Positions 24,028 through 54,696 are shown, counted from the first letter of the stretch. The stretch is DNA of 64,000 nt from Gorillibacterium timonense (GCF_001457415.1 NZ_LN881723.1:529246-593245), one strand, 5' to 3'. The notes: generated by a model from the letters alone, not told the origin. Program-made: numbers and translations.

Positions 24028-25380
24028 CTAATCCACGGCAGCAACCTTATACTCCGCGGCGACGGAATGTCTGCCTTTTACAGCATAGTAGAGGAACGCA
24101 ACGGCGTAGACGAGCACGACCACCGCCCACAACGGAACATCCACACCTAGAATCGGCAGTACCTTCACCAGCATGCTGTACCTCACGACGCAGAAGAGGA
24201 ACAAGACGCCGAGAACGAGAGCGATCGCGGGGATCACCGGGTACAACACACGGAACGGGCGATCCAAGCGGGGCTCCCGAATCCGCAGAATGAAGAGGGA
24301 GATCATACTCAGACAATACATGAGCACGGCACCGAAAACAGCAAGCTCGATCAGAGCGCTGGCAAACGCCGCCGAGCCTGCGCAGATGACCCCGATAGCA
24401 CCGGGAATGACCAGCCCCCATACCGGGACCCCTTTGCGGTTCAGCCTGGATAAAAATTTCGGGAAGTACCCGTCGCGAGCAAGGGCGTACGTCTGCCGGG
24501 AGTACCCGATGATAATGCCGTGCAGGCTAGCGATTAGTCCGACGAGACCGATCAGCGTGACCGCAACAACGATCCAGCTTCCTTCTCCGTAGACATTGCT
24601 GAGTGCTTGCGGCAGCGGATAATCGGCGGGCTTGCCCTCGCCACCGCCCAGCCCCGCAGTGACCAGGAGGGTCAGAACGGTAGCCGCCGCAAGGGTCAGA
24701 ATACCAGATATGAAGCCTCGCGGAATGTCCCGTTGCGGGTTCTCCACTTCTTCAGCGGCCATCGCTCCACCTTCGATCGCCAAGAAGAACCATATGGCAA
24801 AAGGAACCGCCGCCAACACCCCACTGAGCGCTACAGGGGACGCCTCCGCTGGGATCAGGTTTTCCAGCTCCACATGCGGCAAGCCCGCTCCATAGAACAG
24901 GGCCAACCCGACAAGAGCGATAATCGTCGCAATCAATTCGATCAAGGCAGCCCCCTTGATGCCGACCATGTTGATCAGAATAAACAGGACAAAGATTGCG
25001 GTGGTGATCAGAACCGGACTGACCGATGGAATCAGAAAATGAATGTATGCCCCTGTGGATACCGCGATGGCCGGTGGAGCAAAGACAAATTCCATCAGAC
25101 AGGCAATGCCGGTGATGTACCCGGCGAACGGCCCCATCGCTCTTGAGGCGTAAGCCGTCGGTCCTCCAGCATTCGGGATAGAGGTAGACAGCTCGGCATA
25201 GCTGAAGATGAAACAAGCAAAAAACACTGTCACGAGCAGAGCTGCGATCGACATGCCGACCACTCCCCCCTCGCTGAATCCGTAATTCCAGCCAAAATAT
25301 TGCCCCGAAATCACCATTCCAACCGCGATCGCCCAAAGATGGATCGGTTTAAGCGTTTTGTGCAAGACTTTGTTTTCCAT
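24028..25380 (-). CDS. eat: Ethanolamine permease (APC superfamily)
   Basis: 450 residues with about twelve membrane segments. The start LHKTLKPIHLWAIAVGMVIS, GQYFGWNYGFSEGGVVGM and PNAGGPTAYASRAMGPFAGY mark the ethanolamine permease branch of amino acid/polyamine transporters. It would bring ethanolamine into the cytoplasm for the lyase encoded just upstream. It is the last gene of the eut group, 157 bases after eutC, with GAGGAGAGG before the ATG. The 157-bp gap was searched for a second ANTAR element without success. Confidence 0.88.
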   Translation of the reverse strand: MENKVLHKTLKPIHLWAIAVGMVISGQYFGWNYGFSEGGVVGMSIAALLVTVFFACFIFSYAELSTSIPNAGGPTAYASRAMGPFAGYITGIACLMEFVFAPPAIAVSTGAYIHFLIPSVSPVLITTAIFVLFILINMVGIKGAALIELIATIIALVGLALFYGAGLPHVELENLIPAEASPVALSGVLAAVPFAIWFFLAIEGGAMAAEEVENPQRDIPRGFISGILTLAAATVLTLLVTAGLGGGEGKPADYPLPQALSNVYGEGSWIVVAVTLIGLVGLIASLHGIIIGYSRQTYALARDGYFPKFLSRLNRKGVPVWGLVIPGAIGVICAGSAAFASALIELAVFGAVLMYCLSMISLFILRIREPRLDRPFRVLYPVIPAIALVLGVLFLFCVVRYSMLVKVLPILGVDVPLWAVVVLVYAVAFLYYAVKGRHSVAAEYKVAAVD

Positions 25381-25537
25381 CGGATACGTCCTCTCCTCGT
25401 CCTCATATAGTTACCTCGAAAGGAAGGTACTCCAGCTCAAGCGGACACGGTGTCTACAACCTGCTATGCCGCAGACGGATAGCTTCTTCAGCTCACAACT
25501 CCATTTACCGAACCTTCTCTTATGTCATTGATGCCGA

Positions 25538-26260
25538 TCAAACGATCAGCTTTACGCCACTCGCCTGCTGCTCCACCATCTTCCGCAGCAGAGTACCGAT
25601 ATGGGCTCCTGCCTCAATCGGAGGCGTTCCGCTCGCATGGATGTTGGAGATGACCATCCGATCGGAGTCCTTTCGGCCCGGAGCTGGACGGTAGCACATA
25701 TAAGCGCTCATGGAAGAAGCTGTCACGAGCCCGGGGCGCTCCCCGATGAGCAGAACGAGCACCTCGGGAGCAAGCACTCGACCGATGTCATCCATAACCC
25801 CTACTCTTCCTCCCTTGACAAAAAAGGGCGTCCCCTCCTGCAGTCCGTTCGCAGCCAAAGAATCGCGAAGGGCCGGCAGCACGTCAGCTAGATTGTCATC
25901 GATGGCTTTTGCACTCAGACCATCCGAGACGACGATCTGTACCTGGGGCCTGTGGATACAGCGCTCCCCCAGCTCCTTCTCGCTTGCCTCGGTCAGCACT
26001 CGCCCGCTATCGGGAACCAACAGATAATGCTCCTTGTCCCGATATCGGGTTTCGACGGTAAACAAGTCGAACTCAGCGAGCGTCTCCTCCTTCACCACCC
26101 CGTATACCGCATCGACCGCCTCCGCGTGATCCAGGCGCAGCTTGAGCATTTCCCTCGTCAACGGCCGCGTCCCCGTTCGCCCTACGTCTAGCCGAGCAGG
26201 CGTATCCTGCATCCATTCCCGAAAACGATCCTCGCCCGCCATAGTGTCGTGTTCCCTCAT
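25538..26260 (-). CDS. eutC: Ethanolamine ammonia-lyase small subunit
   Basis: 240 residues. EutC forms the adenosylcobalamin-binding interface of ethanolamine ammonia-lyase with EutB, making acetaldehyde and ammonia. Conserved blocks: RTGTRPLTREMLKLRLDHAEA, VVSDGLSAKAID, RPGLVTASSMSAYMCYRP and NIHASGTPPIEAGAHI near the C-terminus. The start at 26260 is set by AGGAGGAGGG about seven bases upstream. It lies 54 bases after eutB. Confidence 0.92.
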   Translation of the reverse strand: MREHDTMAGEDRFREWMQDTPARLDVGRTGTRPLTREMLKLRLDHAEAVDAVYGVVKEETLAEFDLFTVETRYRDKEHYLLVPDSGRVLTEASEKELGERCIHRPQVQIVVSDGLSAKAIDDNLADVLPALRDSLAANGLQEGTPFFVKGGRVGVMDDIGRVLAPEVLVLLIGERPGLVTASSMSAYMCYRPAPGRKDSDRMVISNIHASGTPPIEAGAHIGTLLRKMVEQQASGVKLIV

Positions 26261-26314
26261 CTCGCTCCCTCCTCCTTGCCAGCACTCTGACATGCTTAAG
26301 ATCTACCGTGTTCT

Positions 26315-27679
26315 TTAATAAAGAAACCGCCTTGCATCTCCAGCCGCCTTGGTCAGCCTTCCGTCCTGCATGATCCCAATCTCCCCAAGCCAAGCTTCAA
26401 ATTCCGGTGCCGGACGTTTCCCCAGCGTTTCGCGGATAGAGGCAATATCGTGATAGCTCGCCGACTGGTAATTCAGCATACAGTCATCCGCCATCGGCAC
26501 CCCGATGACGAAGTTGACTCCTGCCGCTGCCAGCAAGATCCCAAGGTTCTCCATATCGTTCTGGTCTGCTTTCATGTGATTCGTGTAGCAGATATCGACA
26601 CCCATCGGAAGCCCGTGCAGCTTCCCCATAAAATGATCCTCCAGTCCGGCGCGGATGACCTGCTTGCTGTCATAGAGATACTCCGGACCAATAAAGCCGA
26701 CCACCGTGTTCACAATGAACGGATTGAACCGGCGGGCAAGCCCGTAGCAGCGCGCTTCCAGCGTCAGCTGATCGATGCCGAAATGAGCATTCGAGGACAG
26801 CTCCGACCCTTGCCCGGTTTCAAAATACCAGCGATTCGGCCCAGGAGCGGTTCCCTTCTCCTGAATCAAGGCGTCCGCTTCCAGGAGCAGAGCCAGATCG
26901 ATGCCGAAGCCCTTGTTTCCTTCCTCGGTGCCAGCCAGGCTTTGAAACAACAGATCCGCCGGCGCACCCTCTCGGACGGCACGCATCTGTGTCGTGACAT
27001 GAGCCAGCACGCAATTTTGGGTTGGAATGCTCCAGTGGGTGATGACGTCCTGAGTGGCGTGCAGGAGCGCCTTCATCGATTCGGTCGTATCGCTGACGGG
27101 GTTGATTCCGATGACGGCGTCCCCTATGCCATAAGCGAGCGCTTCAAACAGCGAGGCCTTCATTCCGATGACATGATCGGCCGGGTGGTTCGGCTGCGCC
27201 CGGGAAGCGAGAGTTCCTCGGTACCCGATCGAAGTTCGGCAAGTCGTGATCACCTCCATCTTCGATGCAGCTTGAATGAGGTCGAGATTCGACATGAGCT
27301 TGCACAAAGCCGCGATCATTTCACTCGTCATTCCCCGGCCAAGCCGAAGCAGCTCGCTTCCCGTCGTCTCCGTTCGCAGGATGTGCTCCCGCAGCTCCGC
27401 TACTGACCAGCCACGAATCGAGGAGAACACCACTTCATCAATTCCCTCTTCGATTACCCGCGACACCTCATCGATCTCCGGGGGAAGTGGCGACCCGCTC
27501 CGGATCTCGGACAGGAGGCAGTCCGCCAGCAATGATTTGGCCGCGATTCTCTCCGTCATATCCTCTGCGGAGATTCCGGCCAGGCTGTCTCCAGACTTCT
27601 CTTCATTCGCCTTGGCCAGCAACTCCTTTAAATCCCGGAATCGATAGTCCCTTCCTCTCAATGCCGTATGAAGTTTCAT
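26315..27679 (-). CDS. eutB: Ethanolamine ammonia-lyase large subunit
   Basis: 454 residues, the full catalytic subunit. Signature segments include GYRGTLASRAQPNHPADH, GINPVSDTTESMKALLH, PTQNCVLAHVTTQM, LCYTNH-type VDICYTNHMKADQNDMENL and PMADDCMLNYQSASYHD. With EutC it converts ethanolamine to acetaldehyde and ammonia using adenosylcobalamin. A GAGAGGGGA ribosome site lies just before the ATG. It follows eutA by 63 bases. No shell-protein genes are near, so the acetaldehyde is released into the cytosol. Confidence 0.95.
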   Translation of the reverse strand: MKLHTALRGRDYRFRDLKELLAKANEEKSGDSLAGISAEDMTERIAAKSLLADCLLSEIRSGSPLPPEIDEVSRVIEEGIDEVVFSSIRGWSVAELREHILRTETTGSELLRLGRGMTSEMIAALCKLMSNLDLIQAASKMEVITTCRTSIGYRGTLASRAQPNHPADHVIGMKASLFEALAYGIGDAVIGINPVSDTTESMKALLHATQDVITHWSIPTQNCVLAHVTTQMRAVREGAPADLLFQSLAGTEEGNKGFGIDLALLLEADALIQEKGTAPGPNRWYFETGQGSELSSNAHFGIDQLTLEARCYGLARRFNPFIVNTVVGFIGPEYLYDSKQVIRAGLEDHFMGKLHGLPMGVDICYTNHMKADQNDMENLGILLAAAGVNFVIGVPMADDCMLNYQSASYHDIASIRETLGKRPAPEFEAWLGEIGIMQDGRLTKAAGDARRFLY

Positions 27680-27742
27680 GCCTTCCCCTCTCTCCTAAAA
27701 GCACAGGATGTTTACAGCTCTGATGCGAAATAAGTAGAGTTC

Positions 27743-29215
27743 TCACTCCTGAAAAAGGAGGCTTTTGATCACGACCGGGATGACATCCTCCTTGATCGGC
27801 TCTCCTACATCCAGATAATCTCCCTCTTGAGGAACCAACTGATCGAGGCAAATCAGCCTGTGTCTTTGCGGTTCTTTCAGCTTGATGAGCAAAAGGTGAC
27901 CGAGTGCTTTCGCCATATCGCTCTCACAAATGAGCAGCATGGCTCGATCCCTCAGCATCGGCAACGCATAGGCTTCTGCCAAGCCCTCCGCGATGCGCTG
28001 CAACCGCCTATACGAACAGGCTCCCGACGACCGCAGACAGAGAGCAAAAGGCGGATCAGATCCAGCTTCAGCATAGATCGAGACGCCCTGGGCAACCGTT
28101 CCACCCAGCGCCTCCTTCAGTGTCCGTACATCATCCGCCCCAACTTCCGCCTCAGGAGGCAATTCGCAGATGACGACCGGAATGTTGCGCAGCGGCAGCA
28201 GCCCGGGACTGTAATACATCGTCGCTCCGCTCACCTCTGTCGTCTGCGTCCCTGCCCCGATGACAGTAGCCCGGACTGACTGCTCCGCAACGCGTACCGG
28301 CACCGGCCATTCCTTCCCAATCCTCGCCAACACAGCGGCCAGGAGCGGGCCGATGTCGCCATACTTGGCAGTCGCCTGTACGCTCTCGGGAGGGGGAGCC
28401 TCCATCAAACGGCCAACACCGCCGGATATCCAAATTTCATCTGGCTGCGGCAGATTCTGAACCGAGGCACCCACGATGAGCGGCTCTGCACGTACAAGCG
28501 CATCCGAAGTGCCGCACACCGAAAGCAAAAGAGTGGTCGCTAGCGTTCGGCAAAGGTCGTCCAGCTCCTCAAAACGGACGGAATCCCCCAGTCCAGGAAG
28601 CTTCTTCCCCGTTCCTCCCGCCCACTTCCGAATAGCGGGGGAGATATACTGCACCCGGCCTTCCTCATCCACTCGAACGAGCCGCCCGCCAATATGGAAG
28701 GTCGCGGTAGCAACGAGTCTTCCTCTCCGAAAGTAGGCCGTATTGGCCGTTCCTCCGCCTATGTCGACGTTGGCGATCAGCCCCTCGGTCTCCAGCGAGC
28801 GTCGCTCCGCCCCAGAGCCTTTGCCAGCCAGCAGCGATTCCAAATCCGCCCCTGCGGTTGCAACGACAAATTGCCCCGCATGGAGAGCGAGGGCATGAGC
28901 AAGCCCTTCGGCATTCGACTTAGAGGCCGTCTCTCCTGTCAGAATGATCGCTCCTGTCTGCACCATCTCCGGCAACAGCCCTGCTCTCGCATACTCCTCT
29001 CCCAACAAACGAACAACTGCCGGAACATCGATCTCGTCATCTCCAAGAAGCGGAGTCGAATAGATCGGGCTCTCATAGTCGATCGCCCGTTTCGTAATCT
29101 CATAACGAGGAAGTGCAAAGCCTCCCGAGGTGCGTGTCAGCGTGAGCTTCGACAAAATCCACTTTGTGGTGCTTGTGCCAAGGTCAATGCCTACACTCGT
29201 CAGCGTTTCCTCCAC
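27743..29215 (-). CDS. eutA: Ethanolamine ammonia-lyase reactivating factor
   Basis: 490 residues with the EutA actin/Hsp70-like fold: N-terminal SVGIDLGTSTTKWILSKL, NVDIGGGTANTAYFRRG and TVIGAGTQTTEVSGATMYYS. EutA exchanges damaged cobalamin from the lyase in an ATP-dependent way. GTG 29215 is preceded by GAGGAGGAG at seven bases. The 129-base leader between eutV and eutA carries an ANTAR-type dual hairpin, so this gene and those downstream are probably controlled by antitermination. Confidence 0.92.
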   Translation of the reverse strand: MEETLTSVGIDLGTSTTKWILSKLTLTRTSGGFALPRYEITKRAIDYESPIYSTPLLGDDEIDVPAVVRLLGEEYARAGLLPEMVQTGAIILTGETASKSNAEGLAHALALHAGQFVVATAGADLESLLAGKGSGAERRSLETEGLIANVDIGGGTANTAYFRRGRLVATATFHIGGRLVRVDEEGRVQYISPAIRKWAGGTGKKLPGLGDSVRFEELDDLCRTLATTLLLSVCGTSDALVRAEPLIVGASVQNLPQPDEIWISGGVGRLMEAPPPESVQATAKYGDIGPLLAAVLARIGKEWPVPVRVAEQSVRATVIGAGTQTTEVSGATMYYSPGLLPLRNIPVVICELPPEAEVGADDVRTLKEALGGTVAQGVSIYAEAGSDPPFALCLRSSGACSYRRLQRIAEGLAEAYALPMLRDRAMLLICESDMAKALGHLLLIKLKEPQRHRLICLDQLVPQEGDYLDVGEPIKEDVIPVVIKSLLFQE

Positions 29216-29271
29216 TCGCTTCTCCTCCTCTCTGTCGTTGAATACAGAAAGACGCCTTGAACCGACAGACC

Positions 29272-29326
29272 AAGCGCACCCAACGGGCGAGCTCCTGCTC
29301 TATCAGATCAAAGCGTCGTTGCTTTG
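29272..29326 (-). ncRNA. ANTAR-type dual hairpin and overlapping terminator-like stem in the eutA leader
   Basis: On the minus strand CAAAGC-AACGAC-GCTTTG (29326-29309) is a six-pair stem with hexaloop having A at position 1 and G at 4, the EutV recognition rule. One base later TCTG-ATAGAG-CAGG (29307-29294) has a weaker stem and a loop again with A1 and G4. GAGCTCGCCC (29294-29285) then pairs with GGGTGCGCTT (29281-29272) and touches the second hairpin. No strong T-run follows this last stem, so the terminator role is less sure than the ANTAR pair. Confidence 0.6.
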
Positions 29327-29344
29327 TCTTTGCTATTCACTTCC

Positions 29345-29926
29345 TTAGACAATCCCATTCTCAAAATCCATGATGACGGCTTCCGCCGTTTTTACCAGGC
29401 TGGTTCGTTCATACATGCTCCGGCCGCGAAGCCTCGCATAGGCTTCTGCTTCATCAAGGCGACATCGACTCATCAAGATTCCTTTGGCCCTGTCGATGAT
29501 CTTGCGCTCCTCCATCTTTCCCTTCAGCCTGGCCACGTCGCCTTCCAGCTCACGCAGCTTGCGACGCTGCTCAAAGCCGATCTCCACACTCATCAGGAGT
29601 CCGCCTTCCGTGAATGGCTTTGTGACATACCCCGAAGCCCCCGCCTCTCTGGCGCTCACGCACCACTCCTTGCGGTAATGAGCAGTCAGCAGGATGATCA
29701 CCGGATCGTACCATTTGCGAATCTGCCGCGATGCCTGAAGTCCATTCAGCTTGGGCATATGGACATCCATGATGACTAACTCCGGTCGATGCTCATAAGC
29801 AAGCCGTAACGCTTCATCACCGTTTCTGGCTTCCAGAACGCCCCCATAATCCGCCTTAAGAAGAATCTCCTTCACATCCAAGCGAATAATCGGTTCATCA
29901 TCGACAACCATCGCCGGAACACCCAT
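29345..29926 (-). CDS. eutV: EutV-type response regulator with ANTAR RNA-binding domain
   Basis: 193 residues. Receiver domain (residues 1-120: VVDDEPIIRLDVKEIL, phosphoacceptor in PELVIMDVHMPKLNG, then LLTAHYRKEW and GYVTKPF), followed by a coiled segment and a C-terminal ANTAR domain (KIIDRAKGILMSRCRLDEAEAYARLR split as DRAKGILMSRCRLDEAEAY). Phosphorylated EutV dimers bind paired hexaloop hairpins and prevent termination. It overlaps the end of eutW by 29 bases, as a cognate pair. Confidence 0.92.
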   Translation of the reverse strand: MGVPAMVVDDEPIIRLDVKEILLKADYGGVLEARNGDEALRLAYEHRPELVIMDVHMPKLNGLQASRQIRKWYDPVIILLTAHYRKEWCVSAREAGASGYVTKPFTEGGLLMSVEIGFEQRRKLRELEGDVARLKGKMEERKIIDRAKGILMSRCRLDEAEAYARLRGRSMYERTSLVKTAEAVIMDFENGIV

Positions 29927-31334
29927 CCAACTCCAGCTCCTTAAGCGGAAATGTGAGCGTTAAGCTCAGCATGCCGGGAGAAAGCTCGTGCCAAACCTTC
30001 CCTTCGAGTGTTTCCTCTGCCAGCAGCCTGATCAAAGTGAAGCCGAGCGATCCCGTTCCTTCAACAGAGGAGCTTTGATCGCGATCCCCGATGTCTCCAG
30101 TCACGAAAGTGGAAGCTGGAGCGAGGAACCGCTCCTCCCAAATCAACTCGCCTATCTGCTCGACCTCTCGAAAAATGACGGTGATGGCTCCGTTGCCATC
30201 CCGGTGCTTCACGGTGTTTTGCAAAAGCTCGTTCACAATCAAGGCGAGGGAAGCAAAAGGCTTTGCTTCCATGAATACCTCCGATACCTCCAGTTGAAGA
30301 GCCAGCGAATGATCCGGTGCCAGCATAGCTTCCGACACTTCCGTCAGAAGCTCACTTATCAAGCGGCCCGCCTCCACCCGCCCTGACCCTTCTTTAGAGA
30401 GGAAGCGATGAATGCTCGCAACCCCTTCGATCCGATGCAGACTCTCTTCAAGAGCGGCTGATACATTCGGGTCTTGCTGACGCCGCTGCTGCAGCCTGAG
30501 CATACTGATGATGGTCTGCATCTGGTTCTCGACTCGATGTCGGATTTCCTGAAGGCCGATGGATTTGGCGCGGAGCTCCCGTTCCTTATCCACGACATCC
30601 GTTCGATCACGCAGCAGCACAACATTCGCTGCCAGCTTCCCCTTACGCTCCAGCTTAACCAATCTTCGGGTATATACCCTTGAGCCGAACCTCAGCTCTT
30701 CCTCCTGTTCGGACAGATTTACAACGATCGCCCGATTGGACTCCAGAAGAGCTCTGCCCCGCTCATTCGCGTAGCGAATGGCTCCTTCATGGTCCACAAG
30801 CACGATGCCTTCCTCAAACAGATCGGGAATCCCGCTCATCGCGAGCGATTCTTCCAGCAGCACTTCCATCAGATAGGCATTGGATTGTTTAAGGGAAGCG
30901 ATGCACCGCTCTCGGTTTACCTGCTCGCTTATGTCTTGCTCTTGAATCAAAACGGCGATTACGCTTCCCGATGGACCGTGGATCGGAACGACCCGCTGAC
31001 GGATCGGCACATCCTCTTGGGACAATCCCCGCGCATCCGTTACCGGATGTCCCGTGCGAAATACTTCGAACACACCCGGCTCGTTCACCGGAAGGGCAAC
31101 TGCACCAACCACATTCTTTTGGTAGAGGGATGGCGACCAGGATGACCTGCCATGCGCGATAACAATGGCCACTTGATCGTCCTTGCCGAGACAATCGATG
31201 AACACATCGCCTTGGGCAAGATCAGCCATCGTGTCCAACTGGGACGCGAGTTGTTCCACCAGCGGAATATCATCCGCGGTCAAGCAGGTGAGCTCTTCAC
31301 ACATCACTCGAACGGAAGGGAGCTTTCGGCTCAT
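29898..31334 (-). CDS. eutW: EutW-type sensor histidine kinase
   Basis: 478 residues. N-terminal sensor region (about 1-160, H_kinase_N-like, LTCLTADDIPLVEQLASQ) then a PAS-like region (about 170-255) and the HisKA_2/HPK11 transmitter whose phosphoacceptor is in EIRHRVENQMQTIISML, with NELLQNTVKH as N box and GSLGFTLIRLLAEE as G box. No membrane segment is seen, consistent with cytoplasmic ethanolamine sensing known for EutW. It is the first gene of the eut group. The 323 bases upstream hold its presumed promoter (not clearly assignable) and an orphan terminator. Confidence 0.9.
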   Translation of the reverse strand: MSRKLPSVRVMCEELTCLTADDIPLVEQLASQLDTMADLAQGDVFIDCLGKDDQVAIVIAHGRSSWSPSLYQKNVVGAVALPVNEPGVFEVFRTGHPVTDARGLSQEDVPIRQRVVPIHGPSGSVIAVLIQEQDISEQVNRERCIASLKQSNAYLMEVLLEESLAMSGIPDLFEEGIVLVDHEGAIRYANERGRALLESNRAIVVNLSEQEEELRFGSRVYTRRLVKLERKGKLAANVVLLRDRTDVVDKERELRAKSIGLQEIRHRVENQMQTIISMLRLQQRRQQDPNVSAALEESLHRIEGVASIHRFLSKEGSGRVEAGRLISELLTEVSEAMLAPDHSLALQLEVSEVFMEAKPFASLALIVNELLQNTVKHRDGNGAITVIFREVEQIGELIWEERFLAPASTFVTGDIGDRDQSSSVEGTGSLGFTLIRLLAEETLEGKVWHELSPGMLSLTLTFPLKELELDGCSGDGCR

Positions 31335-33313: not shown

Positions 33314-35920
33314 TTAGTTCTTGCCGTAGAAGGCGTCACGGTAGAGTTGAGCCAGCTCGGTGACGAGCGGCATCCGCGGGTTAGCCGTAGTGCATTGGTC
33401 CTCGAAGGCGCGGTCAGCCAGGTAATCAGCTTTGGCTTCGAAGTCCTTCGCGTTGATTCCGACTTGTTGGAACGATTCCTCGATACCGAGCGTCTTGTTC
33501 AGCTTGCGGATGGCTTCGATCAGGCTGTTCACGCCTTCTTCCGTCGTCCGGGCCGGAAGGCCAAGGAAGCGGGAGATTTCGGCATAGCGTTCGTCGGCGA
33601 TGAAGTGGGTATATTTCGGGAACGAAGCGAACTTCGTCGGTTTTTGAGCATTGTATTTGATGACATACGGCATCAGGATTGCGTTGGTGCGGCCGTGGGA
33701 GGTGTGGAACTCAGCACCCCATTTGTGCGCCAGGCTGTGGTTGATGCCGAGGAACGAGTTCGCGAAGGCCATACCGGCGATGCAGGAAGCATTGTGCATG
33801 TGTTCGCGGGCTGCAGGGTCTCCCGTTTGGTACGATTTCTCGATGTTGTCGAACACCAGCTTGATAGCCTTGAGGGCGAGTCCGTCGGTGAAGTCGTTCG
33901 CCATGACCGATACATACGCTTCGATGGCGTGGGTCAGAACGTCCATACCGGTGTCGGCTACAGCAACCTTCGGCAGCGAGTAGACGAATTCCGGATCGAC
34001 GATCGCTACGTCCGGCGTGAGCTCATAGTCGGCCAGCGGATATTTCGTGTTGCCTTGGTTCTTGTCGGTGATAACCGCGAAGGAGGTTACTTCCGAGCCG
34101 GTACCCGAGGTCGTCGGGATGGCAACGAATTGAGCTTTCTTGCCGAGGCGTGGGTATTTGTAGATCCGTTTGCGGATATCCATGAACTTCTGCTTCAGGG
34201 CGTGGAAGCTGGTATCCGGGTATTCGTAGAACAGCCACATGGCTTTCGCTGCGTCCATCGGGGAACCGCCGCCGAGAGCGATGATGCAGTCCGGTTGGAA
34301 TCGATTCATCATGTCTACACCGCGGTCAACCGTCGTGGTGGACGGATCAGGCTCAACATCCGAGAAAACTTCGATGAAGACCGGCGTTTGACGTTTGCGC
34401 AGGTAGTGCTCTACCTTCTCGACATAGCCGAGCTTAACCATGATGGGGTCGGTAACGATCATGACGCGGGAGATGTCAGGCATTTTGGCCAGGTATTGGG
34501 TTGCACCTTTTTCGAAGTAAACCTTCGAAGGAACCTTGAACCATTGCATGTTCACCGTGCGGTATGCTACGCGTTTTACGTTGATCAGGTTGACAGCCGT
34601 TACGTTCGACGAAGTAGCGTTGCGTCCGTACGATCCGCAGCCCAGCGTCAGCGACGGAAGGTTGGTGTTGTAGATGTCGCCGATAGCGCCTTGCGTCGAA
34701 GGCGAGTTAACGATGATACGACCCGTTTGCAGGCGGTCGGAGAAAGCTTGGATGACGGCGTCGTCGTTCGAGTGGATGACCGAGGAGTGGCCCATACCGC
34801 CGAAGTTGACAACTTGTGCGGCGCGATCGATGCCTTCTTGCGCGTTCTTGACACGGTATGCGGCGAGAATCGGGCTGAGCTTTTCAGCGGACAGCGGGAA
34901 CTTCGGTCCAACGCCAGTGATTTCAGCTACAAGGATCTTCGTGTCAGCCGGCACCGTAATTCCAGCCATTTCAGCGATCTTGGCTGCCGGTTGGCCGACG
35001 ATGGCCGGGTTGACAGCGCAGGTTTCAGGTTTAAGCGCCATGGCGGTCAGCTTGGCGATTTCGTCCTTGTTCAGGAAGTAGCAGCCTTGGGCGATCATGA
35101 GCTTTTTCACTTGGTCGTAAATCGGCTCTTCGATGATGACCGATTGCTCGGATGCGCAGATCATGCCGTTATCAAACGTCTTCGACAGAATGAGGTCGTT
35201 GACGGCTTGTTCCAGATAGGCGGTCTTCTCGATGAAGCAGGGCACGTTACCAGGGCCTACGCCGAGAGCCGGTTTGCCGCAGCTGTAAGCGGCTTTGACC
35301 ATGCCCGAACCACCGGTAGCGAGAATCAGTGCAACGCCGGGATGATTCATCAAGGTGTTCGTGGCTTCCATGGACGGTTGTTCGATCCATTGGATGCAGT
35401 TTTCAGGAGCGCCATGCTTTACTGCAGCTTCATGCAGGATGCGAGCCGCTTCCGAGCTACATTTTTGAGCGGACGGGTGGAAGCCGAAGATGATCGGGTT
35501 GCGGGTTTTGATCGAGATGAGTGCTTTGAACATCGTCGTCGAGGTCGGGTTCGTCACCGGGGTGATCCCCATGACCACGCCTACCGGCTCGGCGATCTTT
35601 TGGTAGTTTTCGTACGGATTTTCTTCGATGACGCCTACGGTCTTGTCATACTTGATGCTGTGGTACACATATTCAGTGGAGAAAATGTTCTTCGTAATTT
35701 TATCTTCATAGACGCCGCGGCCGGTTTCTTCAACCGCCAGCTTGGCGAGGTACATGTGCTGATCGAGTCCGGCGAGTGCCATTTCTTGAACGATCTTGTC
35801 GATTTGCTCCTGATTCATTTCCATGAAGGCGTCTTGCGCTTTCTTGGCATTTTCGACGAGGCGATTGATTTGATCTTGAACGGTCACTGCGTCTTTCACT
35901 TTCTTTTCTTCCACTGCCAT
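33314..35920 (-). CDS. adhE: Bifunctional acetaldehyde-CoA/alcohol dehydrogenase
   Basis: 868 residues. The N-terminal aldehyde dehydrogenase domain (about 10-440) has the catalytic cysteine in FDNGMICASEQSVI and LILATGGSGMVKAAYS; the C-terminal iron-dependent alcohol dehydrogenase domain (about 455-865) has GGGSPMDAAKAMW, GMDVLTHAIEAYVS and NHSLAHKWGAEFH as Fe ligands. It interconverts acetyl-CoA, acetaldehyde and ethanol using NADH, and could also take up acetaldehyde from the nearby ethanolamine lyase. GGAGGG precedes the ATG. A Rex/Fnr-like palindrome lies about 100 bp upstream. It is monocistronic. Confidence 0.95.
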   Translation of the reverse strand: MAVEEKKVKDAVTVQDQINRLVENAKKAQDAFMEMNQEQIDKIVQEMALAGLDQHMYLAKLAVEETGRGVYEDKITKNIFSTEYVYHSIKYDKTVGVIEENPYENYQKIAEPVGVVMGITPVTNPTSTTMFKALISIKTRNPIIFGFHPSAQKCSSEAARILHEAAVKHGAPENCIQWIEQPSMEATNTLMNHPGVALILATGGSGMVKAAYSCGKPALGVGPGNVPCFIEKTAYLEQAVNDLILSKTFDNGMICASEQSVIIEEPIYDQVKKLMIAQGCYFLNKDEIAKLTAMALKPETCAVNPAIVGQPAAKIAEMAGITVPADTKILVAEITGVGPKFPLSAEKLSPILAAYRVKNAQEGIDRAAQVVNFGGMGHSSVIHSNDDAVIQAFSDRLQTGRIIVNSPSTQGAIGDIYNTNLPSLTLGCGSYGRNATSSNVTAVNLINVKRVAYRTVNMQWFKVPSKVYFEKGATQYLAKMPDISRVMIVTDPIMVKLGYVEKVEHYLRKRQTPVFIEVFSDVEPDPSTTTVDRGVDMMNRFQPDCIIALGGGSPMDAAKAMWLFYEYPDTSFHALKQKFMDIRKRIYKYPRLGKKAQFVAIPTTSGTGSEVTSFAVITDKNQGNTKYPLADYELTPDVAIVDPEFVYSLPKVAVADTGMDVLTHAIEAYVSVMANDFTDGLALKAIKLVFDNIEKSYQTGDPAAREHMHNASCIAGMAFANSFLGINHSLAHKWGAEFHTSHGRTNAILMPYVIKYNAQKPTKFASFPKYTHFIADERYAEISRFLGLPARTTEEGVNSLIEAIRKLNKTLGIEESFQQVGINAKDFEAKADYLADRAFEDQCTTANPRMPLVTELAQLYRDAFYGKN

Positions 35921-36009: not shown

Positions 36010-36027
36010 ACGTGAATAAATTCACAT
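36010..36027. promoter_or_regulatory. Rex/Fnr-like operator upstream of adhE
   Basis: ACGTGAATAAATTCACAT holds the near-perfect palindrome GTGAATAAATTCAC (36012-36025), close to the Rex consensus TTGTGAA-N4-TTCACAA. It lies about 90 bases upstream of the adhE start. The remainder of 35921-36334 shows no gene that I can support; a clear -35/-10 pair was not found. Confidence 0.6.
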
Positions 36028-36397: not shown

Positions 36398-38062
36398 TCA
36401 GCTGATGACCATGGCTCCCGCCTCCAGAAAGTGATCCAAGTAGGTCAACAGCGGATTGGCCGCCGAATGGCCGAAGGAACAGGAGGCCGTTTCCCGCAGC
36501 AATTCGGCTAATTCGCGCAGATGACGGAGCAAACCGGCATCCGGGTCCTCTTCCGTTAATCGGGAGAGGCTCTCTTCGATTCGCATCAATCCAATCCGGC
36601 AGGTGCTGCATCGCCCGCAGGATTGATTGCCCAAGAAGCCATACGCGGTGCGAACGGCATCAAGCAGGCTCTCCTTCTCTCCGATGACCCTAACCTCCGG
36701 CGCTCCCATCCCTTCGCTCCATTTCAACAGGGTTGGGTTCGAGAGAGGCAATCCGCATTGATCAGGCCGAAGGTAGCCTCCCGCCGGTCCTCCGTACTGA
36801 ACGGCGCGAACGGCTTCCCCCTCCGGTACTCCTCCGCCGACTGACTCGATGACTTTGCCCAAGGCGAGGGAGGCCGCTACCTCGCAGATTCCTGGCTGCC
36901 GAATTCGTCCCGATAAGGCAAGGAGTTGGGTCTTACCGACGTCCGATACAACAACAGGATCGGCTTGCTTTCCAGCCTCCGCGGCCGCATGGGATAAGAG
37001 AGCGAACGTTTCGGGAGCGCCTACCATCACCGCCCCGCCTTCAAAGAACAGCCGACCGAGTGCGGACTCGACTCCCCCCCCTGGAATCGCTCTTCTCCCC
37101 TTCAGCGCCTCCAGCAAGGCGGTGGCTTCCTTCTGCAGGAAGTCCTCCTCTCCGATACAGAGCTCCAATCGGAACGAATAACCGCTTCCGAGGATACCCT
37201 CGCCCAGCAGGCCGCTGGCTGACGCCTCTTGAATCGCCAGCCGAAGCCGCCGGGCAGCGAGCTCGTATTCCGCGGGGACATGGATATACCCACAAGAAGC
37301 TCCCACCGCATAGCCCGCGAGCGCCAGCCCTTCGATGAGCGAATGTGGATCACTTTCGGCGAGCGCCTGGCGGAGAACCAGCCCCGGTGCCGCTTCGTTC
37401 AGGCTGCAGACGAGGCAATCCGCTTGACTGGAATCAGGCAAATAGCTCTGTGCCAGTTCCAGCAGGTCGGAAGGGTTTTTCCGCAAAACTGCATCTGTCC
37501 ATGCTCGGTATTCGCCTGCCCCTATCGCTTCCTCCAGCCGTTCGGGGTTGATCTTTCCCCAGCGGCTCGTCAGCACCCGGGTCTGCCCAGAGAAGAAACT
37601 CCACTCCTCCATGAACGGCCTCTCACTCTGCGGGAGGGACAGAGCCTGAGGCGTCGCGTCTTCGGTTGCCCCGATATACCCGGCAACAAGCCGTTCGACC
37701 GGACGTCCCGCTTGCAGATGATCCTCTACGATCTCCCACACATCGGAAACGTGTACGGACGTATAGACCGTCCCTTCCGGGTATACGACAAGAACAGGCC
37801 CTTGCCCGCATATCCCGAGACAGCCGGTTTGAACGAGCTCGATCCGTTCGTCTTGCTTCCTGCGAATGAGCTCGTCGCGGACGGTAGCGTACAGCTCGCG
37901 CCCCTGCTTGTCGTGGCAGCCGCTTGCACCGCACACCATGACCGAGCGCAGGGCGGGTTCCCGGCTGCCTCCCGCAACCACCTCTTCTATTGGGCTTCGC
38001 TTCCGCCTCCGCATTTTATCAGCCCATTGAAGCTTTATCGTTTCCAGATCCGTTTCCGTCAT
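36398..38062 (-). CDS. NuoF/HydB-like protein lacking the flavin/NADH loop
   Basis: 554 residues. N-terminal thioredoxin-like [2Fe-2S] domain with Cys44, Cys49, Cys81 and Cys85; then the NuoF 51-kDa fold recognisable from SDPHSLIEGLALAGYAVGAS onward; then the [4Fe-4S] site QSCGRCSTCR and the fourth cysteine in CSFGHSAANPLL. The segment that should hold GRGGAGFPTG, which grips FMN and NADH, is missing by about 25 residues between PSDLLELAQ and DCLVC, and NADEGDPG is altered to SLNEAAPG. The C-terminal two-cluster ferredoxin domain of HydB is also absent. It is last in the hydrogenase operon, so it may carry electrons or regulate without oxidising NADH. Confidence 0.8.
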   Translation of the reverse strand: MTETDLETIKLQWADKMRRRKRSPIEEVVAGGSREPALRSVMVCGASGCHDKQGRELYATVRDELIRRKQDERIELVQTGCLGICGQGPVLVVYPEGTVYTSVHVSDVWEIVEDHLQAGRPVERLVAGYIGATEDATPQALSLPQSERPFMEEWSFFSGQTRVLTSRWGKINPERLEEAIGAGEYRAWTDAVLRKNPSDLLELAQSYLPDSSQADCLVCSLNEAAPGLVLRQALAESDPHSLIEGLALAGYAVGASCGYIHVPAEYELAARRLRLAIQEASASGLLGEGILGSGYSFRLELCIGEEDFLQKEATALLEALKGRRAIPGGGVESALGRLFFEGGAVMVGAPETFALLSHAAAEAGKQADPVVVSDVGKTQLLALSGRIRQPGICEVAASLALGKVIESVGGGVPEGEAVRAVQYGGPAGGYLRPDQCGLPLSNPTLLKWSEGMGAPEVRVIGEKESLLDAVRTAYGFLGNQSCGRCSTCRIGLMRIEESLSRLTEEDPDAGLLRHLRELAELLRETASCSFGHSAANPLLTYLDHFLEAGAMVIS

Positions 38063-38244: not shown

Positions 38245-39627
38245 TCAAGAAATGGAGGCTACCGGCTTCTTCGCCGCATCCCGAAATCCCTTCATCTCCT
38301 TGACGGACTTGCGGATATCACGAATACAGCCGGGACCGCCCGCACAGCCGCCTACGCACGCCATGCCTTCCAGGAAATCGCCCTCCAGCTTGTTGAACTT
38401 CAGCTTGCGCAAATGCTGGATGCATTCCTCAGCCCCGTTGCCCGCCAAGGTCTGAACGCGAGCTTCCGGTTGCAGATACTCCAGAATTGCTTCCGTAACC
38501 CCGCCGGACCACGGAAAGCTGCGGCCAAGCCGGGTCGCATCGTTGATCTCTTCGCTTTCGCACTGGCGTGGGTCGATCGCAAAGGCGTCGAACAACGCAT
38601 CAAGCTCGGCGAAGGTCATGGCAAAATGCTTCTTCGCTCCGTACGCGCCGAGCATCTCCGCCTTCTTCGAAATGCAGGGGCCGAAGAACACGGTATGCGC
38701 TTCCGCATCCAACCCTTCCAGCATCGTGACGATTTCGATCATTGGGGAAGGCGTCGTCGACATGTATTTCAGCACCGCCGGGTAATGCTTGCGGATTAAT
38801 TGAACGAAGGACGGGCAGCAGGAGCTCGTCATCGGCTCATTCCCGTGCAGATGCTCCTCCAGCTCCAGCGCTTCCTTGCGGACCGTCTCGTCCGCTCCCA
38901 TCGCCACCTCGAACACATGGGAGAAGCCAAGCCGCTTGAGCGCCCGCTTGATCTGGCCCATTTCGACACCAGGATACTGGCCGGTTACAGCAGGGGCGAT
39001 GACGGCGTTCAGCCGTTTTTTCTCCAGAAGGAGATCAAGGACATCCAGGATAAACGTCTTATCGCCGATCGCTCCGAACGGGCAGCCCGAGATGCAGCGG
39101 CCGCAGTTGATGCATTTCTCTTCGTCGATGACGGCGATCTCCCCGCTGTCTACCGTGATCGCATTGACCGGACAGACCGCCTTGCACGGGCGCTGATGGT
39201 CGGTGATCGCCATATACGGACATACCTTGCTGCAGCGGCCGCATTCCAGGCATTTGTCGTAGTCGATCTGCGCCCGCTTGTTCACGATGCTAATCGCTCC
39301 GACCGGGCAGGTCTCCTTGCAGCGCTTGGAGATGCAGCCCTGGCAGGAATCGCTCACCGATACGCGGTGAACGGGGCACTGCTCACAGGCCGGCTTGATG
39401 ACATGCACGATCTGCTCTCCCGCTTGCGGAAGCGCAAGCTTGACCCGCTCCTGAACGATGGCCCTCTCTCGGTAGACGCAGCAGCGAAACTGGGGCAACC
39501 CATCCGGGATGACCGTCTTCGGCACCTCGTCGAAGAGGAAATCCCTTCTGCGCGCGATGGCAAGCCGGCTGATCTCGGTAAGGACCGTGTGCTGGATACG
39601 TTCGACATCCGTTTCAAACTCCCACAT
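38245..39627 (-). CDS. [FeFe]-hydrogenase, monomeric group B-like
   Basis: 460 residues. The N-terminus carries a cysteine-rich region with several [4Fe-4S] motifs (CEQC, CQGC..CKETCP, CLECGRCSKVCP, CINCGRCISGCP). The H-cluster domain has L1 TSSCCPSF with both cysteines, L2 GPCISKKAE and L3 EGMACVGGCAGGPG, the pattern of group B enzymes. It should reduce protons or oxidise H2. ATG 39627 is taken because GGGAG lies 10-12 bases upstream. It follows the phosphatase gene by 84 bases. The maturases HydE, HydF and HydG are not in the window. Confidence 0.88.
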   Translation of the reverse strand: MWEFETDVERIQHTVLTEISRLAIARRRDFLFDEVPKTVIPDGLPQFRCCVYRERAIVQERVKLALPQAGEQIVHVIKPACEQCPVHRVSVSDSCQGCISKRCKETCPVGAISIVNKRAQIDYDKCLECGRCSKVCPYMAITDHQRPCKAVCPVNAITVDSGEIAVIDEEKCINCGRCISGCPFGAIGDKTFILDVLDLLLEKKRLNAVIAPAVTGQYPGVEMGQIKRALKRLGFSHVFEVAMGADETVRKEALELEEHLHGNEPMTSSCCPSFVQLIRKHYPAVLKYMSTTPSPMIEIVTMLEGLDAEAHTVFFGPCISKKAEMLGAYGAKKHFAMTFAELDALFDAFAIDPRQCESEEINDATRLGRSFPWSGGVTEAILEYLQPEARVQTLAGNGAEECIQHLRKLKFNKLEGDFLEGMACVGGCAGGPGCIRDIRKSVKEMKGFRDAAKKPVASIS

Positions 39628-39711
39628 GAGGAAACACTCCCTGTTTGTTTTCATTTGGGGCTATTTGGGCTATATCATGGAGTGGAAAGCACACTTGAAG
39701 CCTTAAGCGAA

Positions 39712-40890
39712 CTAATAAAGCGTCCGGTCCGTCGGATAGCCGAGCTTCCGCAGCGCTTCGACGATCTCGTCGATGATTCTCAGCTTGATGTTGAGGTCAG
39801 CCGGAAAATGCGGGTTCTGATGCGCCGGATTGATCGCGGTTCCGACATGAAAATGGATTTCGGTAGCATCCTTCAGGATGCGGAGCAGCCGGGACACTCC
39901 GTCGCTGCCCGCAATCTCGCGAGGGATGCCCCCTTGTTCGGCATACTCTTTTAGTTGAAACAGCGCTTTGCGCAGCGTCAGAACGCCTTCGGTGACGAGG
40001 TCGATGCCTTCCATCTGGGCGATGGGAGGGATCTCCGCGTCGAGATGAGTGGGTAGCTCCACTCGAAGCGGACGGCCAAGAATCCGGGAGACGATGTTTG
40101 CCGAGGTGCCGCCGCAGATGATCTTTTTGCCCGGGGCTTCATGCCACAAGCGCACGACCTGCTCATCTCTGGCGGAGTCCTCGGGCGGGCCGATCAGAAG
40201 CGACACCGGAGACGGATAGCGGAATTTCACACAAACCGCCGTCGTGTCGTCTCCAGGCTCCATGCAGTACAGATGCTCGCAGGTCTCGGTGAGATAGCGG
40301 GAAGCCGCTTCCGCCGACGGGTCCCGCCGCATGAATCGTTCCATCGCTTCCGCTACATTGTCCCATTGCCAGCCGAGGTTGAGAATACCGCCTACTCCCG
40401 CATGGATGACCCCGTCGCTGACGAACAGGAACGCATCCTGCCGGTCCACGAGGAAGCGGCTTTCCTTGATCAGCCTGCCGTTGATCATCCGCTCCGAATG
40501 CTCGATCGGGACGAGCTTGCCGTTCTTGAAATGAAAGGTAGGCGGGTTATCATACTCAACCAAGTAGACGGTCCCGTCGTGGTAGGCTTGTAGAATCGTA
40601 AACGTCGAATAAGCAAGCCCGCGCACCTTGCAGACCGGCAACGTCTCGGCAACCGTCTGGACCACTTCCTCGATCAGCGCCCCGTTCTTTAGCATTTCGC
40701 CGGCGATTTTGGACGTGAGTGTGGCAAGGATATTGGCTTTCACCCCGCTGCCGAGCCCATCGGCCAAGATGACGATGGTCGAATCCTCACACGGGACAAT
40801 GTTCACTTTATCGCCGCACAGCTCCTCTCCCTTCTTGATCAGGCTGGCGTAGCCGACTTCGGCAAACAACCGGGTTTTCTCCATAAACAT
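39712..40890 (-). CDS. SpoIIE-family phosphatase linked to hydrogenase genes
   Basis: 392 residues. An N-terminal PP2C-like SpoIIE domain (about 1-225) shows the metal motifs ILADGLGSGVKAN and VSDGVIHAGVG and PGDDTTAVCVKF. A C-terminal domain of about 165 residues (GGTSANIVSRILGR, IPPIAQMEGIDLVTEGVLTL) is found mainly with hydrogenase gene sets. It probably dephosphorylates a Ser/Thr-phosphorylated regulator in response to the sensory hydrogenase encoded immediately upstream (38 bases). Its target is not identifiable here. Confidence 0.85.
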   Translation of the reverse strand: MFMEKTRLFAEVGYASLIKKGEELCGDKVNIVPCEDSTIVILADGLGSGVKANILATLTSKIAGEMLKNGALIEEVVQTVAETLPVCKVRGLAYSTFTILQAYHDGTVYLVEYDNPPTFHFKNGKLVPIEHSERMINGRLIKESRFLVDRQDAFLFVSDGVIHAGVGGILNLGWQWDNVAEAMERFMRRDPSAEAASRYLTETCEHLYCMEPGDDTTAVCVKFRYPSPVSLLIGPPEDSARDEQVVRLWHEAPGKKIICGGTSANIVSRILGRPLRVELPTHLDAEIPPIAQMEGIDLVTEGVLTLRKALFQLKEYAEQGGIPREIAGSDGVSRLLRILKDATEIHFHVGTAINPAHQNPHFPADLNIKLRIIDEIVEALRKLGYPTDRTLY

Positions 40891-40928
40891 TAGTCGCCCT
40901 TCTGTGTTGGTCTAGTTCGCTTTCAACC

Positions 40929-42647
40929 TTAGTCGCGAGAGATCAGCTGTTTCATCTTGGTGAGCGTGACCTTGGTGACGGCGGTCGTTTCACCGAGCAA
41001 GCTGGCGATTTCCTGGGAGACGCGCATCTGGTTGTCGATGACCTTCTGAGCCATCTCGATCGTCTCCTCCTTCAAGCACTGCAGCTTCTCCTGCTCCAGC
41101 TCCCGTTCGGTCAGATCGGTCAGAACCAACAGGTAAAAGCGGAAGTCCGGCAAGTAGGTGACGGTCACCATCGCGGTCTTCTTCCGGTCGGCAAAATAAA
41201 CCTTGTTCAGCGTCTTCTCGGTCTTCACGAACGGAACATCGTCGAGGTTAACAAAGAGCTCGATCGGAACGTCGAGCATCTCTTTCATGCTCGCATCAAA
41301 GAACCGGCAAGCCGCTTCATTGACCTCCTGAACGATCAGCTCCTCGCTGACGGCGAGAATGCAATTCGGCGTCTTGTCGATAATGACGTTGGACAACGAC
41401 TCCGCCTTGGCCTGCATGTACGGCATGCACATGTACAGCTCGGCTTTTCCCTCGAGCACCGCTTCCGCCTTCTCCCGGCAAGACGAGTAGCCGCAGGCGC
41501 CGCAATTCAGTTCATCCTCGGGGGAGTGCTTGCCGAACTTCTCCAGGATTCCGGTGATGGCTTGCTCCGAATGGCCGATCTTGCCCTTGCGGCGATCGGC
41601 AAAGCTCCGGGCCAGCGCTTCCGCAGGCAAGCGGGGAAGCTCCCGGCGAGGAGCCGGACTGTTCCGATAGCGGCTCACGCGCGCTTGCTTCTCCAGCAGG
41701 CCGCAGGCATCTCCCGACACCGGCCCGTTGATGCAGCCGCTGCTGCAGGCATTCAATTCCAGGAAGAAGGAACCTTCCTCCGGGTTGAGCCTGGACAAGA
41801 CGGATTGGCACAGCTCAATCCCCGAATAAGCGCGATGCAGCTCCGGCAAGCCCTTGTCGAAGAAGGTCGTCTCGATGACGCCGTTTTCCACCGGGTAGAG
41901 GCGAGCCGCTTGTTCGTGCTCCTTACTAGGAGCAAGGTCATCCGCCGCAGCCGACAAGTCGCTTGCCATTCGGAAGCCCGGCACTGGGCCAGGCTCCTGC
42001 ATCTGCTCCTGCGCTGCCTCGAAGGTAGCTATCTCATCGAAGGTCAGGACCGCATCGATGGCGCCGGGATTCACCATCGCTTCCTTTTTCTTGGCATAGC
42101 AAGGCCCGACGAAGACCACCTTGACGGAAGGGTCCATCGCCTTCAAGAGCTTGGCATGAGCGATCATCGGGGAATCGGTTTTGGCTAGACAAGAAAGCAG
42201 CTCCGGGTAATGGCGCTCGATCAGCTCGACGACAACCGGACAGGCGGTCGTGATGAGCCTTCCCCTATTCCGGAATTCCTCATAGTAGAGGCCGGACACC
42301 ACCTCGGCCGCTTCCGCCGTTTCTCTTATCTCGCGAAAACCGATTTCGCGAAGCTTCTTCTTCATCCATCCGGGCTTGTGCTCATATGCAACATGGGAAG
42401 GCGCGAGGCTAACGACAAGGGGAGTTCCCGCCCGCAGCATGTCGCGAACCCGGTCCGCATCGCTCGGAACATGCATCGCTTTTTGCGGACATTCCCGGAT
42501 GCAGAGCCCGCAGGCGATACAATCCTCCATCACATCGGCTTGATTGCCCTTGAACCGGATCGCCTTTACCGGGCAGTTGCGGATACAGCGATAACAGTTT
42601 TTGCAATTGGCTTCGGACGAGCGAACAAAGCTTGGACTTTCATTCAT
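40929..42647 (-). CDS. Sensory-type [FeFe]-hydrogenase with PAS domain (HydS-like)
   Basis: 572 residues. Two N-terminal [4Fe-4S] motifs (Cys15/18/21/25 and Cys43/46/49/53), the H-cluster domain, a further cluster motif NCGACGYSSC and a PAS domain at about 445-545 ending in a helical signalling tail. The L1 motif is TTACP: the proton-relay cysteine is Ala135 and only the cluster ligand Cys136 remains, as in sensory group C hydrogenases. L2 is GPCYAKKKE and L3 ELNACSSGCINGP. It should sense H2 or redox state and signal through the PAS domain, perhaps to the next-encoded phosphatase. The ATG overlaps the ferredoxin gene stop. Confidence 0.88.
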   Translation of the reverse strand: MNESPSFVRSSEANCKNCYRCIRNCPVKAIRFKGNQADVMEDCIACGLCIRECPQKAMHVPSDADRVRDMLRAGTPLVVSLAPSHVAYEHKPGWMKKKLREIGFREIRETAEAAEVVSGLYYEEFRNRGRLITTACPVVVELIERHYPELLSCLAKTDSPMIAHAKLLKAMDPSVKVVFVGPCYAKKKEAMVNPGAIDAVLTFDEIATFEAAQEQMQEPGPVPGFRMASDLSAAADDLAPSKEHEQAARLYPVENGVIETTFFDKGLPELHRAYSGIELCQSVLSRLNPEEGSFFLELNACSSGCINGPVSGDACGLLEKQARVSRYRNSPAPRRELPRLPAEALARSFADRRKGKIGHSEQAITGILEKFGKHSPEDELNCGACGYSSCREKAEAVLEGKAELYMCMPYMQAKAESLSNVIIDKTPNCILAVSEELIVQEVNEAACRFFDASMKEMLDVPIELFVNLDDVPFVKTEKTLNKVYFADRKKTAMVTVTYLPDFRFYLLVLTDLTERELEQEKLQCLKEETIEMAQKVIDNQMRVSQEIASLLGETTAVTKVTLTKMKQLISRD

Positions 42648-42892
42648 GGCGCCAACACTCCCAGCACATGATCCGCAAAAAAACCGTCCACATCCGTCGA
42701 ATCCAACTCCACGCATGAATCCTCGTCGATTTTGACGGCAACCGCTTTTTGACAGCGCCCGGCGCAGAAGTTCGCTTGCAGTGTAATCCGATCCCCGAGC
42801 CCATGCTCCTCGATCAATTGCTGAAGTTCGCTGATGATGCGGTAAGACCCTCGCAAATGGCAGGAACTCCCCACGCATACGGACAAAATCAT
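42644..42892 (-). CDS. Thioredoxin-like [2Fe-2S] ferredoxin (NuoE C-terminal type)
   Basis: 82 residues. Cysteines in SVCVGSSCHLRG and ANFCAGRCQKAV (C-x4-C ... C-x3-C) form the [2Fe-2S] site of the thioredoxin-like ferredoxins found as the C-terminal part of NuoE/HydC. It would pass electrons to or from the hydrogenases. ATG 42892 is chosen because GAAGGGGGA lies about eight bases upstream. It is the first gene of the five-gene operon and its stop overlaps the HydS-like gene start. Confidence 0.85.
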   Translation of the reverse strand: MILSVCVGSSCHLRGSYRIISELQQLIEEHGLGDRITLQANFCAGRCQKAVAVKIDEDSCVELDSTDVDGFFADHVLGVLAP

Positions 42893-42986: not shown

Positions 42987-43004
42987 TTGTGAAACTGTTC
43001 ACGT
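42987..43004. promoter_or_regulatory. Rex/Fnr-like operator upstream of hydrogenase operon
   Basis: TTGTGAAACTGTTCACGT matches TTGTGAA-N4-TTCACAA in all but the last two positions. It lies 95 bases upstream of the first gene of the hydrogenase operon and about 50 bases from the likely transcription start. The rest of 43005-43200 shows no feature. Confidence 0.6.
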
Positions 43005-43856: not shown

Positions 43857-43902
43857 TGGAGTGAGAACCTTTTGCAATGACAAATATCATAGGCGGATGA
43901 AC

Positions 43903-44163
43903 GCAATGGGAGAGATTACCGTAACCTCCTGGTAACGCCGAAGGAGTAAGCCGCAAGGTGAATCTCTCAGGCAAAAGGACCATTGCCGGACGCATCTCTG
44001 GAGAGCACCCGCGTTAGAGCTTGTTATCAAACCCGATCGGAAGTCGATTCCACTGGTTGGATTCTCGACCGATCGTAGGCTTGAACACACGCCCCGGGTC
44101 ACCCAAGGGGAAACTTGCTTTCGGCCATTCACGCAAGGTAACTCTCAGGTACAAAGGACAGAG
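43903..44163 (+). ncRNA. Tandem glycine riboswitch
   Basis: Two glycine aptamers in series. The first is closed by GCAATGG (43903-43909) with CCATTGC (43980-43986) and contains GGAGAGATTACCG, GCCGAAGGAG and AATCTCTCAGGCAAAAGGAC. The second, from CTCTGGAGAGCACCC (about 43996) to AACTCTCAGGTACAAAGGAC (ending about 44160), has an enlarged variable arm. Binding of glycine should disrupt the terminator that follows and switch on gcvT-gcvPA-gcvPB. Confidence 0.92.
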
Positions 44164-54615: not shown

Positions 54616-54696
54616 CGTGATTTTTATCACATGTTCTATCTTGATTGTAAGGGTATCAATCCGATAATGCAAGTATTATTGTGACTTTTCTCACAA
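54616..54696 (-). promoter_or_regulatory. Promoter of nox with two Rex/Fnr-like sites
   Basis: On the minus strand -35 TTGCAT (54672-54667), 17-bp spacer, -10 TACAAT (54649-54644). TTGTGAGAAAAGTCACAA (54696-54679) stands upstream at about -50 and keeps perfect outer arms TTGTGA/TCACAA. TGTGATAAAAATCACG (54631-54616) overlaps the expected start of transcription. Both fit Rex and the TGTGA-N6-TCACA box of Gram-positive Fnr; sequence alone does not separate them. Confidence 0.65.

Follow-up and report, generated by a model that had tools for sequence, protein, structure and literature searches.

A sensory-type [FeFe]-hydrogenase gene paired with a SpoIIE-type phosphatase gene beside adhE in Gorillibacterium timonense

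The window considered here is a stretch of 64,000 nt from the 5.26-Mb genome of Gorillibacterium timonense (G000:C6:529246-593245), and positions without a locus name are window positions. On its minus strand, in order of transcription, lie genes for a ferredoxin, a hydrogenase-like protein (HydS), a phosphatase (HfsC), a group B [FeFe]-hydrogenase and a NuoF-like protein, and then adhE. The features discussed below are:

42987..43004 (-), Rex/Fnr-type palindrome ACGTGAACAGTTTCACAA, upstream of the operon; exact core, 2 mismatches to TTGTGAAN4TTCACAA
42644..42892 (-), Trx-like [2Fe-2S] ferredoxin, 82 aa (PF01257, 1.9e-8)
40929..42647 (-), HydS, sensory-type [FeFe]-hydrogenase, 572 aa (PF02906 3e-37, PF04060 5e-11, motif counts)
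40950..41051 (-), core of the HydS C-terminal tail, residues 533-566, the most conserved stretch of HydS
39712..40890 (-), HfsC, SpoIIE/PP2C phosphatase (PF07228, 1.6e-13; phosphatase residues about 10-224)
39715..40215 (-), C-terminal domain of HfsC, residues 226-392 (about 165 residues; family conservation, AF2)
38245..39654 (-), group B monomeric [FeFe]-hydrogenase with TSSCCP (TIGR04105, 506 bits against a cut-off of 450)
36398..38062 (-), NuoF-like gene (PF01512, PF10589, PF01257)
36010..36027 (-), Rex/Fnr-type palindrome ATGTGAATTTATTCACGT, upstream of adhE; exact core, 3 mismatches to the full consensus
33314..35920 (-), adhE, bifunctional aldehyde/alcohol dehydrogenase (PF00171, PF00465, PF25137)

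The reading frames of all five operon genes are intact. The ferredoxin and HydS genes share an ATGA overlap, and a gap of 182 nt separates the group B hydrogenase gene from the NuoF-like one. A preliminary description had placed a five-gene operon at 38245-42892; all five genes are real, but only four are inside that interval, with the NuoF-like gene (38062-36398) outside it, and both the neighbouring adhE and the shared operators were missed. Its motif readings stand: TSSCCP is complete in the second hydrogenase, HydS has TTACP with Ala135 (numbered from the ATG at 42647), and "degenerate" is a fair word for the NuoF-like protein, in which the 4Fe-4S motif (CxxCxxC) is kept and the glycine-rich GRGG loop for FMN and NADH, typical of the NADH-binding subunit NuoF/HydB, is absent. 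The PAS domain attributed to HydS was found as well, but as a weak match (E = 0.014) below the Pfam cut-off. The CxxxxC...CxxxC ligands of the ferredoxin are intact. The NuoF-like protein was rejected as a conserved part of the module, having no close relative in 399 genomes.

From N- to C-terminus, HydS consists of two 4Fe-4S motifs, an H-domain (with TTACP and GPC), a cluster that matches Cx2Cx4Cx16C exactly (C382/385/390/407), the PAS region and a conserved tail. Among 77 HydS proteins adjoining an HfsC-type phosphatase, the proton-relay position is occupied by Cys in 46, Ala in 14, Ser in 11, Phe in five and Asn in one; because it varies to this extent, Ala135 is ordinary variation within the class and says little by itself. 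Variation at this position has been published for sensory enzymes (PMC10055695). The H-cluster cysteines (136, 183, 301 and 305) are invariant across the same 77 proteins. The mean frequency of the majority residue, taken over 78 HydS sequences, is 0.85 in the tail (533-566), against 0.48 in the PAS region and 0.50 in the H-domain. Conservation of the tail far above that of the PAS domain is new here, and the tail is likely to be an output or docking helix.

HfsC has an intact active site, with the PP2C metal residues D27, D44/G45, D159/G160 and D214/D215 invariant in 59 relatives. Its AF2 model (pLDDT 90.7) matches SpoIIE (5mqh) at E 3e-14, with Rv1364c (an RsbU-RsbW protein) and RsbX also among the best structural matches. 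The catalytic fold and metal residues are common to HfsC and the SpoIIE/RsbU/RsbX phosphatases; unlike them, HfsC has a C-terminal domain of about 165 residues without a recognised relative, and no linked STAS gene. This domain is predicted confidently (pLDDT 92.5), is kept throughout the family (59 sequences), and gave no match in Pfam and none in the PDB below E 0.019. The best PDB match, to methylglyoxal synthase (E = 0.019, TM 0.40-0.50), was too weak to accept. The conservation of this unannotated domain across the family is also new here.

Modules of this kind have been described before, as hfsABCD and as HydDB group C3, but are not well understood; the host group here is unusual. In hfsABCD of Thermoanaerobacterium saccharolyticum (PMC5707799, PMC11837493) the order is the same, with a PAS hydrogenase (HfsB), a serine phosphatase (HfsC) and a HydA2-like HfsD; here the B, C and D types and their order match the published description, and the ferredoxin is at the HfsA position. 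The differences are the Paenibacillus-related host, the added degenerate NuoF and the adjoining adhE. In T. saccharolyticum, deletion of hfsA or hfsB gave a higher ethanol yield and stronger expression of adhE, effects that the authors interpreted as regulation; hfsC and hfsD were required for the rise, and H2 was affected more by hfsA/hfsB deletion than by deletion of the whole operon (PMC5707799). The link to adhE, made there through expression, is here one of physical adjacency, and the two agree. HydDB group C3, "phosphatase-linked (putative)", likewise has a sensory-type hydrogenase beside a Ser/Thr phosphatase gene, without essential difference from the pair here, and has been proposed to sense H2 and regulate via serine/threonine phosphatases (PMC5037454). 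In Vallitalea, C3 and group B hydrogenases are one gene apart (PMC6163223). The sensory hydrogenase TmHydS of Thermotoga maritima (PMC10055695) shares with HydS the Ala at the relay position, a Gly for Met353 in the L2 motif, and a PAS-type architecture; it has been purified and studied spectroscopically, whereas HydS is known from sequence alone. The form of signalling suggested by the preliminary description is therefore not new, since both the gene order and the hypothesis were already published for hfsABCD (PMC5707799) and group C3 (PMC5037454); neither names the target. In the accessible literature no phosphatase target is named, and neither H2 sensing nor H2-driven dephosphorylation is demonstrated for any member.

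Gene neighborhoods were compared in the best 80 of more than 570 HfsC loci, a sample taken by similarity rather than at random and including several metagenome-assembled genomes (MAGs); selection was by HfsC, so that pairing is measured from the HfsC side and HydS genes without HfsC are left out. HydS is directly upstream of HfsC in all 80, often overlapping it (79 under a strict distance rule), and four divergent HfsC copies keep the same order. Seen from the HfsC side, the two are an obligate gene pair. The preliminary description had named lack of conservation of the SpoIIE gene with the hydrogenases as grounds for dropping its proposal; the pairing is instead strict, and its combination of sensor, phosphatase and effector hydrogenase is still the best reading. 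One listed open frame of 948 aa, a candidate for a natural HydS-HfsC fusion, was rejected on account of a stop codon between the genes.

The rest of the neighborhood is more variable. Among the best 80 of the more than 570 loci, a ferredoxin gene precedes HydS in 74, a group B hydrogenase gene directly follows HfsC in 33, and a NuoF gene is within 10 kb of the pair in 26. These figures bear on the view that HydS does not signal at all but belongs, with the ferredoxin and the group B enzyme, to a single catalytic complex (HfsABCD) directly modified by HfsC. The conserved ferredoxin gene agrees with this, as do the 46 of 77 HydS proteins with Cys at the relay position and a recent suggestion in the literature that HfsD may be dispensable for HfsABC to function as a hydrogenase (PMC13277313). 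Such a complex nonetheless seems quite unlikely: 47 of these 80 loci have the HydS-HfsC pair without a following group B gene, the effector varies between loci, and the stronger effect of hfsA/hfsB deletion on H2 is not what it would lead one to expect.

Of 399 genomes sampled from the phylum, 120 have HfsC, but among 60 close relatives of G. timonense just three do; because of this scarcity, the copy here was probably acquired horizontally.

Clustering of the neighborhoods of the best 80 of more than 570 loci found no HfsC target encoded nearby, and no recurrent STAS or kinase neighbor of the pair, the sole kinase-type gene to recur being a HATPase_c gene of the HydABC operons. It encodes a protein of 185 aa (L070:17947-18504, minus strand, with similar ones in L073, L084 and L114), inside HydABC operons near HydS-HfsC, and is a possible candidate for the kinase acting on the HfsC target. 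Searches of the G. timonense genome itself gave five hits for STAS and several for RsbW-type kinases, two RsbV-RsbW pairs among them; these are no more than candidates for the HfsC target. One might then suppose partner switching, in which HfsC would act on a phosphorylated STAS (RsbV-like) protein and the output would be control of a sigma or anti-sigma factor. SpoIIE, Rv1364c and RsbX as best structural relatives of HfsC point this way; so does the genomic setting of the RsbV-RsbW pairs, one of which is followed by a sigma-factor-like gene and has, by inspection, no phosphatase-like gene in its 12-kb stretch. On the other hand, no STAS family recurs near the pair across these 80 loci, and other phosphatases of the genome could serve the RsbV-RsbW pairs. 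Partner switching is rated as a tentative and rather doubtful proposal; it is compatible with the main explanation given below, whose target it would narrow.

The core palindrome GTGAAN4TTCAC occurs twice in the window as an exact match, before the operon and before adhE, where 0.05 occurrences would be expected. Across the genome the slightly longer TGTGAAN4TTCAC has five sites (two for a reversed-pattern control), preceding the operon, adhE, a HydE-PFOR-HydABC-HydG-HydF operon, a FIST-domain gene and a Crp/Fnr-family gene. In related operons, a Rex box (at most 2 mismatches, within 300 nt upstream of the ferredoxin gene) was found in 31 of 71, compared with 1.46 expected from dinucleotide shuffles. 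A rex gene is present in the G. timonense genome, and among the best 80 of more than 570 loci rex is near the module in eight and adhE-cluster genes, some of them fragments, in seven. The two boxes in the window, at 2 and 3 mismatches to the Rex consensus, fit an Fnr site as well; Rex is favoured as the protein acting on these palindromes, but in this genome it may be Fnr instead. Control of both the operon and adhE by a Rex-type response to NADH/NAD+ is probable, and adhE is proposed to be part of the operon's regulatory unit. The position of adhE next to the module, with matching Rex-type palindromes before both, and the boxes of the related operons are new here.

The HydABC locus (L116; G000:C5:339000-358500) begins with the same palindrome and is a single series of genes for HydE, PFOR, HydABC, HydG and two HydF-like proteins; Pfam assigns the first HydF, and similarity alone the second. 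Downstream of adhE in the window is an ethanolamine utilisation cluster (24028-31334, minus strand), with a EutV-like ANTAR regulator, a EutW-like histidine kinase and EutA identified by Pfam, and EutB, EutC and a permease by inspection. Ethanolamine breakdown produces acetaldehyde, on which AdhE acts.

Redox-type operators, together with the several clusters of HydS and the ferredoxin gene upstream, would also suit a HydS that responds not to H2 but to ferredoxin or the general redox state, sensed through its iron-sulphur clusters, with the H-cluster acting as a redox reporter. The invariance of all H-cluster cysteines in the 77 HydS proteins speaks against this, as the cluster would be costly to maintain if H2 were not bound, and a sensor of this sort is considered possible but not probable.

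The explanation preferred here, held with somewhat better than even confidence, is an hfs-type (HydDB C3) module in which HydS would tune HfsC according to H2 or redox state, and HfsC would shift fermentation between H2 and ethanol. H2, or a redox state set by it, would change HydS at its H-cluster and along its iron-sulphur chain; from there the signal would pass by way of the C-terminal cluster and PAS to the conserved tail; the tail would contact HfsC and alter its phosphatase activity; HfsC would dephosphorylate a Ser/Thr-phosphorylated regulator encoded elsewhere in the genome; and electrons would be shifted between H2 (the group B hydrogenase and HydABC) and ethanol (AdhE). This explanation is supported by the unbroken pairing in the best 80 of more than 570 loci, the invariant PP2C residues, the SpoIIE fold and the conservation of the HydS tail. 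Further support comes from the adjoining adhE and operators, from the Rex boxes of related operons and the presence of rex in the genome and near the module in eight loci, from the HydABC-PFOR-HydEFG operon with the same operator, and from the published deletion effects in the hfs operon (PMC5707799); the module probably steers fermentation between hydrogen and ethanol. Against this model, the published post-transcriptional effects agree only loosely with a phosphatase, the PAS match is weak, and no target was found among the neighbors of the pair in these 80 loci.

The phosphatase became known with the description of the hfs operon, and deletion of its partner is employed in thermophiles to increase ethanol yield. 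Three handles on its target and mechanism are provided here: the neighboring adhE, whose operator matches that of the operon; the HydS tail, which is almost invariant; and the C-terminal domain of HfsC. Judging by its family, G. timonense may tolerate air, which could ease genetics.

In six of the best 80 of more than 570 loci, HfsC is immediately followed by a gene for a TnpB/Cas12f-like protein about 500 aa long. The hosts, named from record titles, are a Caloramator, two Ruminiclostridium, a Christensenella, a Bacillota MAG and a record labelled Calditrichales. Each of these genes directly follows a HydS-HfsC pair, and a conserved RNA is found 3' of it:

L043:7423-8970 (+), TnpB-like gene; L043:8981-9076 (+), RNA
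L045:11202-12707 (+), TnpB-like gene; L045:12715-12791 (+), RNA
L049:7110-8600 (+), TnpB-like gene; L049:8711-8853 (+), RNA
L060:11178-12743 (+), TnpB-like gene; L060:12782-12893 (+), RNA
L071:11200-12678 (+), TnpB-like gene; L071:12735-12813 (+), RNA
L101:11179-12681 (+), TnpB-like gene; L101:12699-12798 (+), RNA
L125-L138, copies of the TnpB-like gene, directly after the HydS-HfsC pair

As read from alignments, all six proteins have substitutions at RuvC positions I and III, and five have one at position II. Ten of the 11 genomes from the Ruminiclostridium family carry the gene, each once, and every one of the 14 copies examined comes after HfsC; the gene is absent from the G. timonense genome (a positive control worked), and its RNA was not found there. 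The RNA, of about 77-143 nt, is just downstream of the gene in 14 of 14 cases, with a terminator-like hairpin next. It contains a pseudoknot, with changes on both sides in eight of 16 pairs (0 of 500 shuffles), and has no credible match in Rfam. A search for a guide target in the neighborhood, up to about 20 kb, gave only the terminator's own arm and short matches of 9-10 nt. Lost RuvC residues, a non-transposon neighbor and a 3' RNA are shared with the TldR regulators (PMC13418256), but because no guide target was found the protein is not classified with them. It is conceivable, although somewhat improbable, that HydS-HfsC works as a general phosphatase switch for H2 or redox state whose outputs can be exchanged: group B or HydABC hydrogenases in most genomes, adhE here, and, in the related loci of Ruminiclostridium, Christensenella and Caloramator, a nuclease-dead RNA-guided TnpB that has a structured RNA of its own. 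If true, this would link hydrogen sensing to RNA-guided control of transcription, a connection unmentioned in the accessible literature.

Two other elements were noted in the window: a further Fnr-like palindrome, TTGTGACTTTTCTCACAA, at 54679-54696, and an ordinary glycine riboswitch upstream of gcvT (43897-43992, plus strand).
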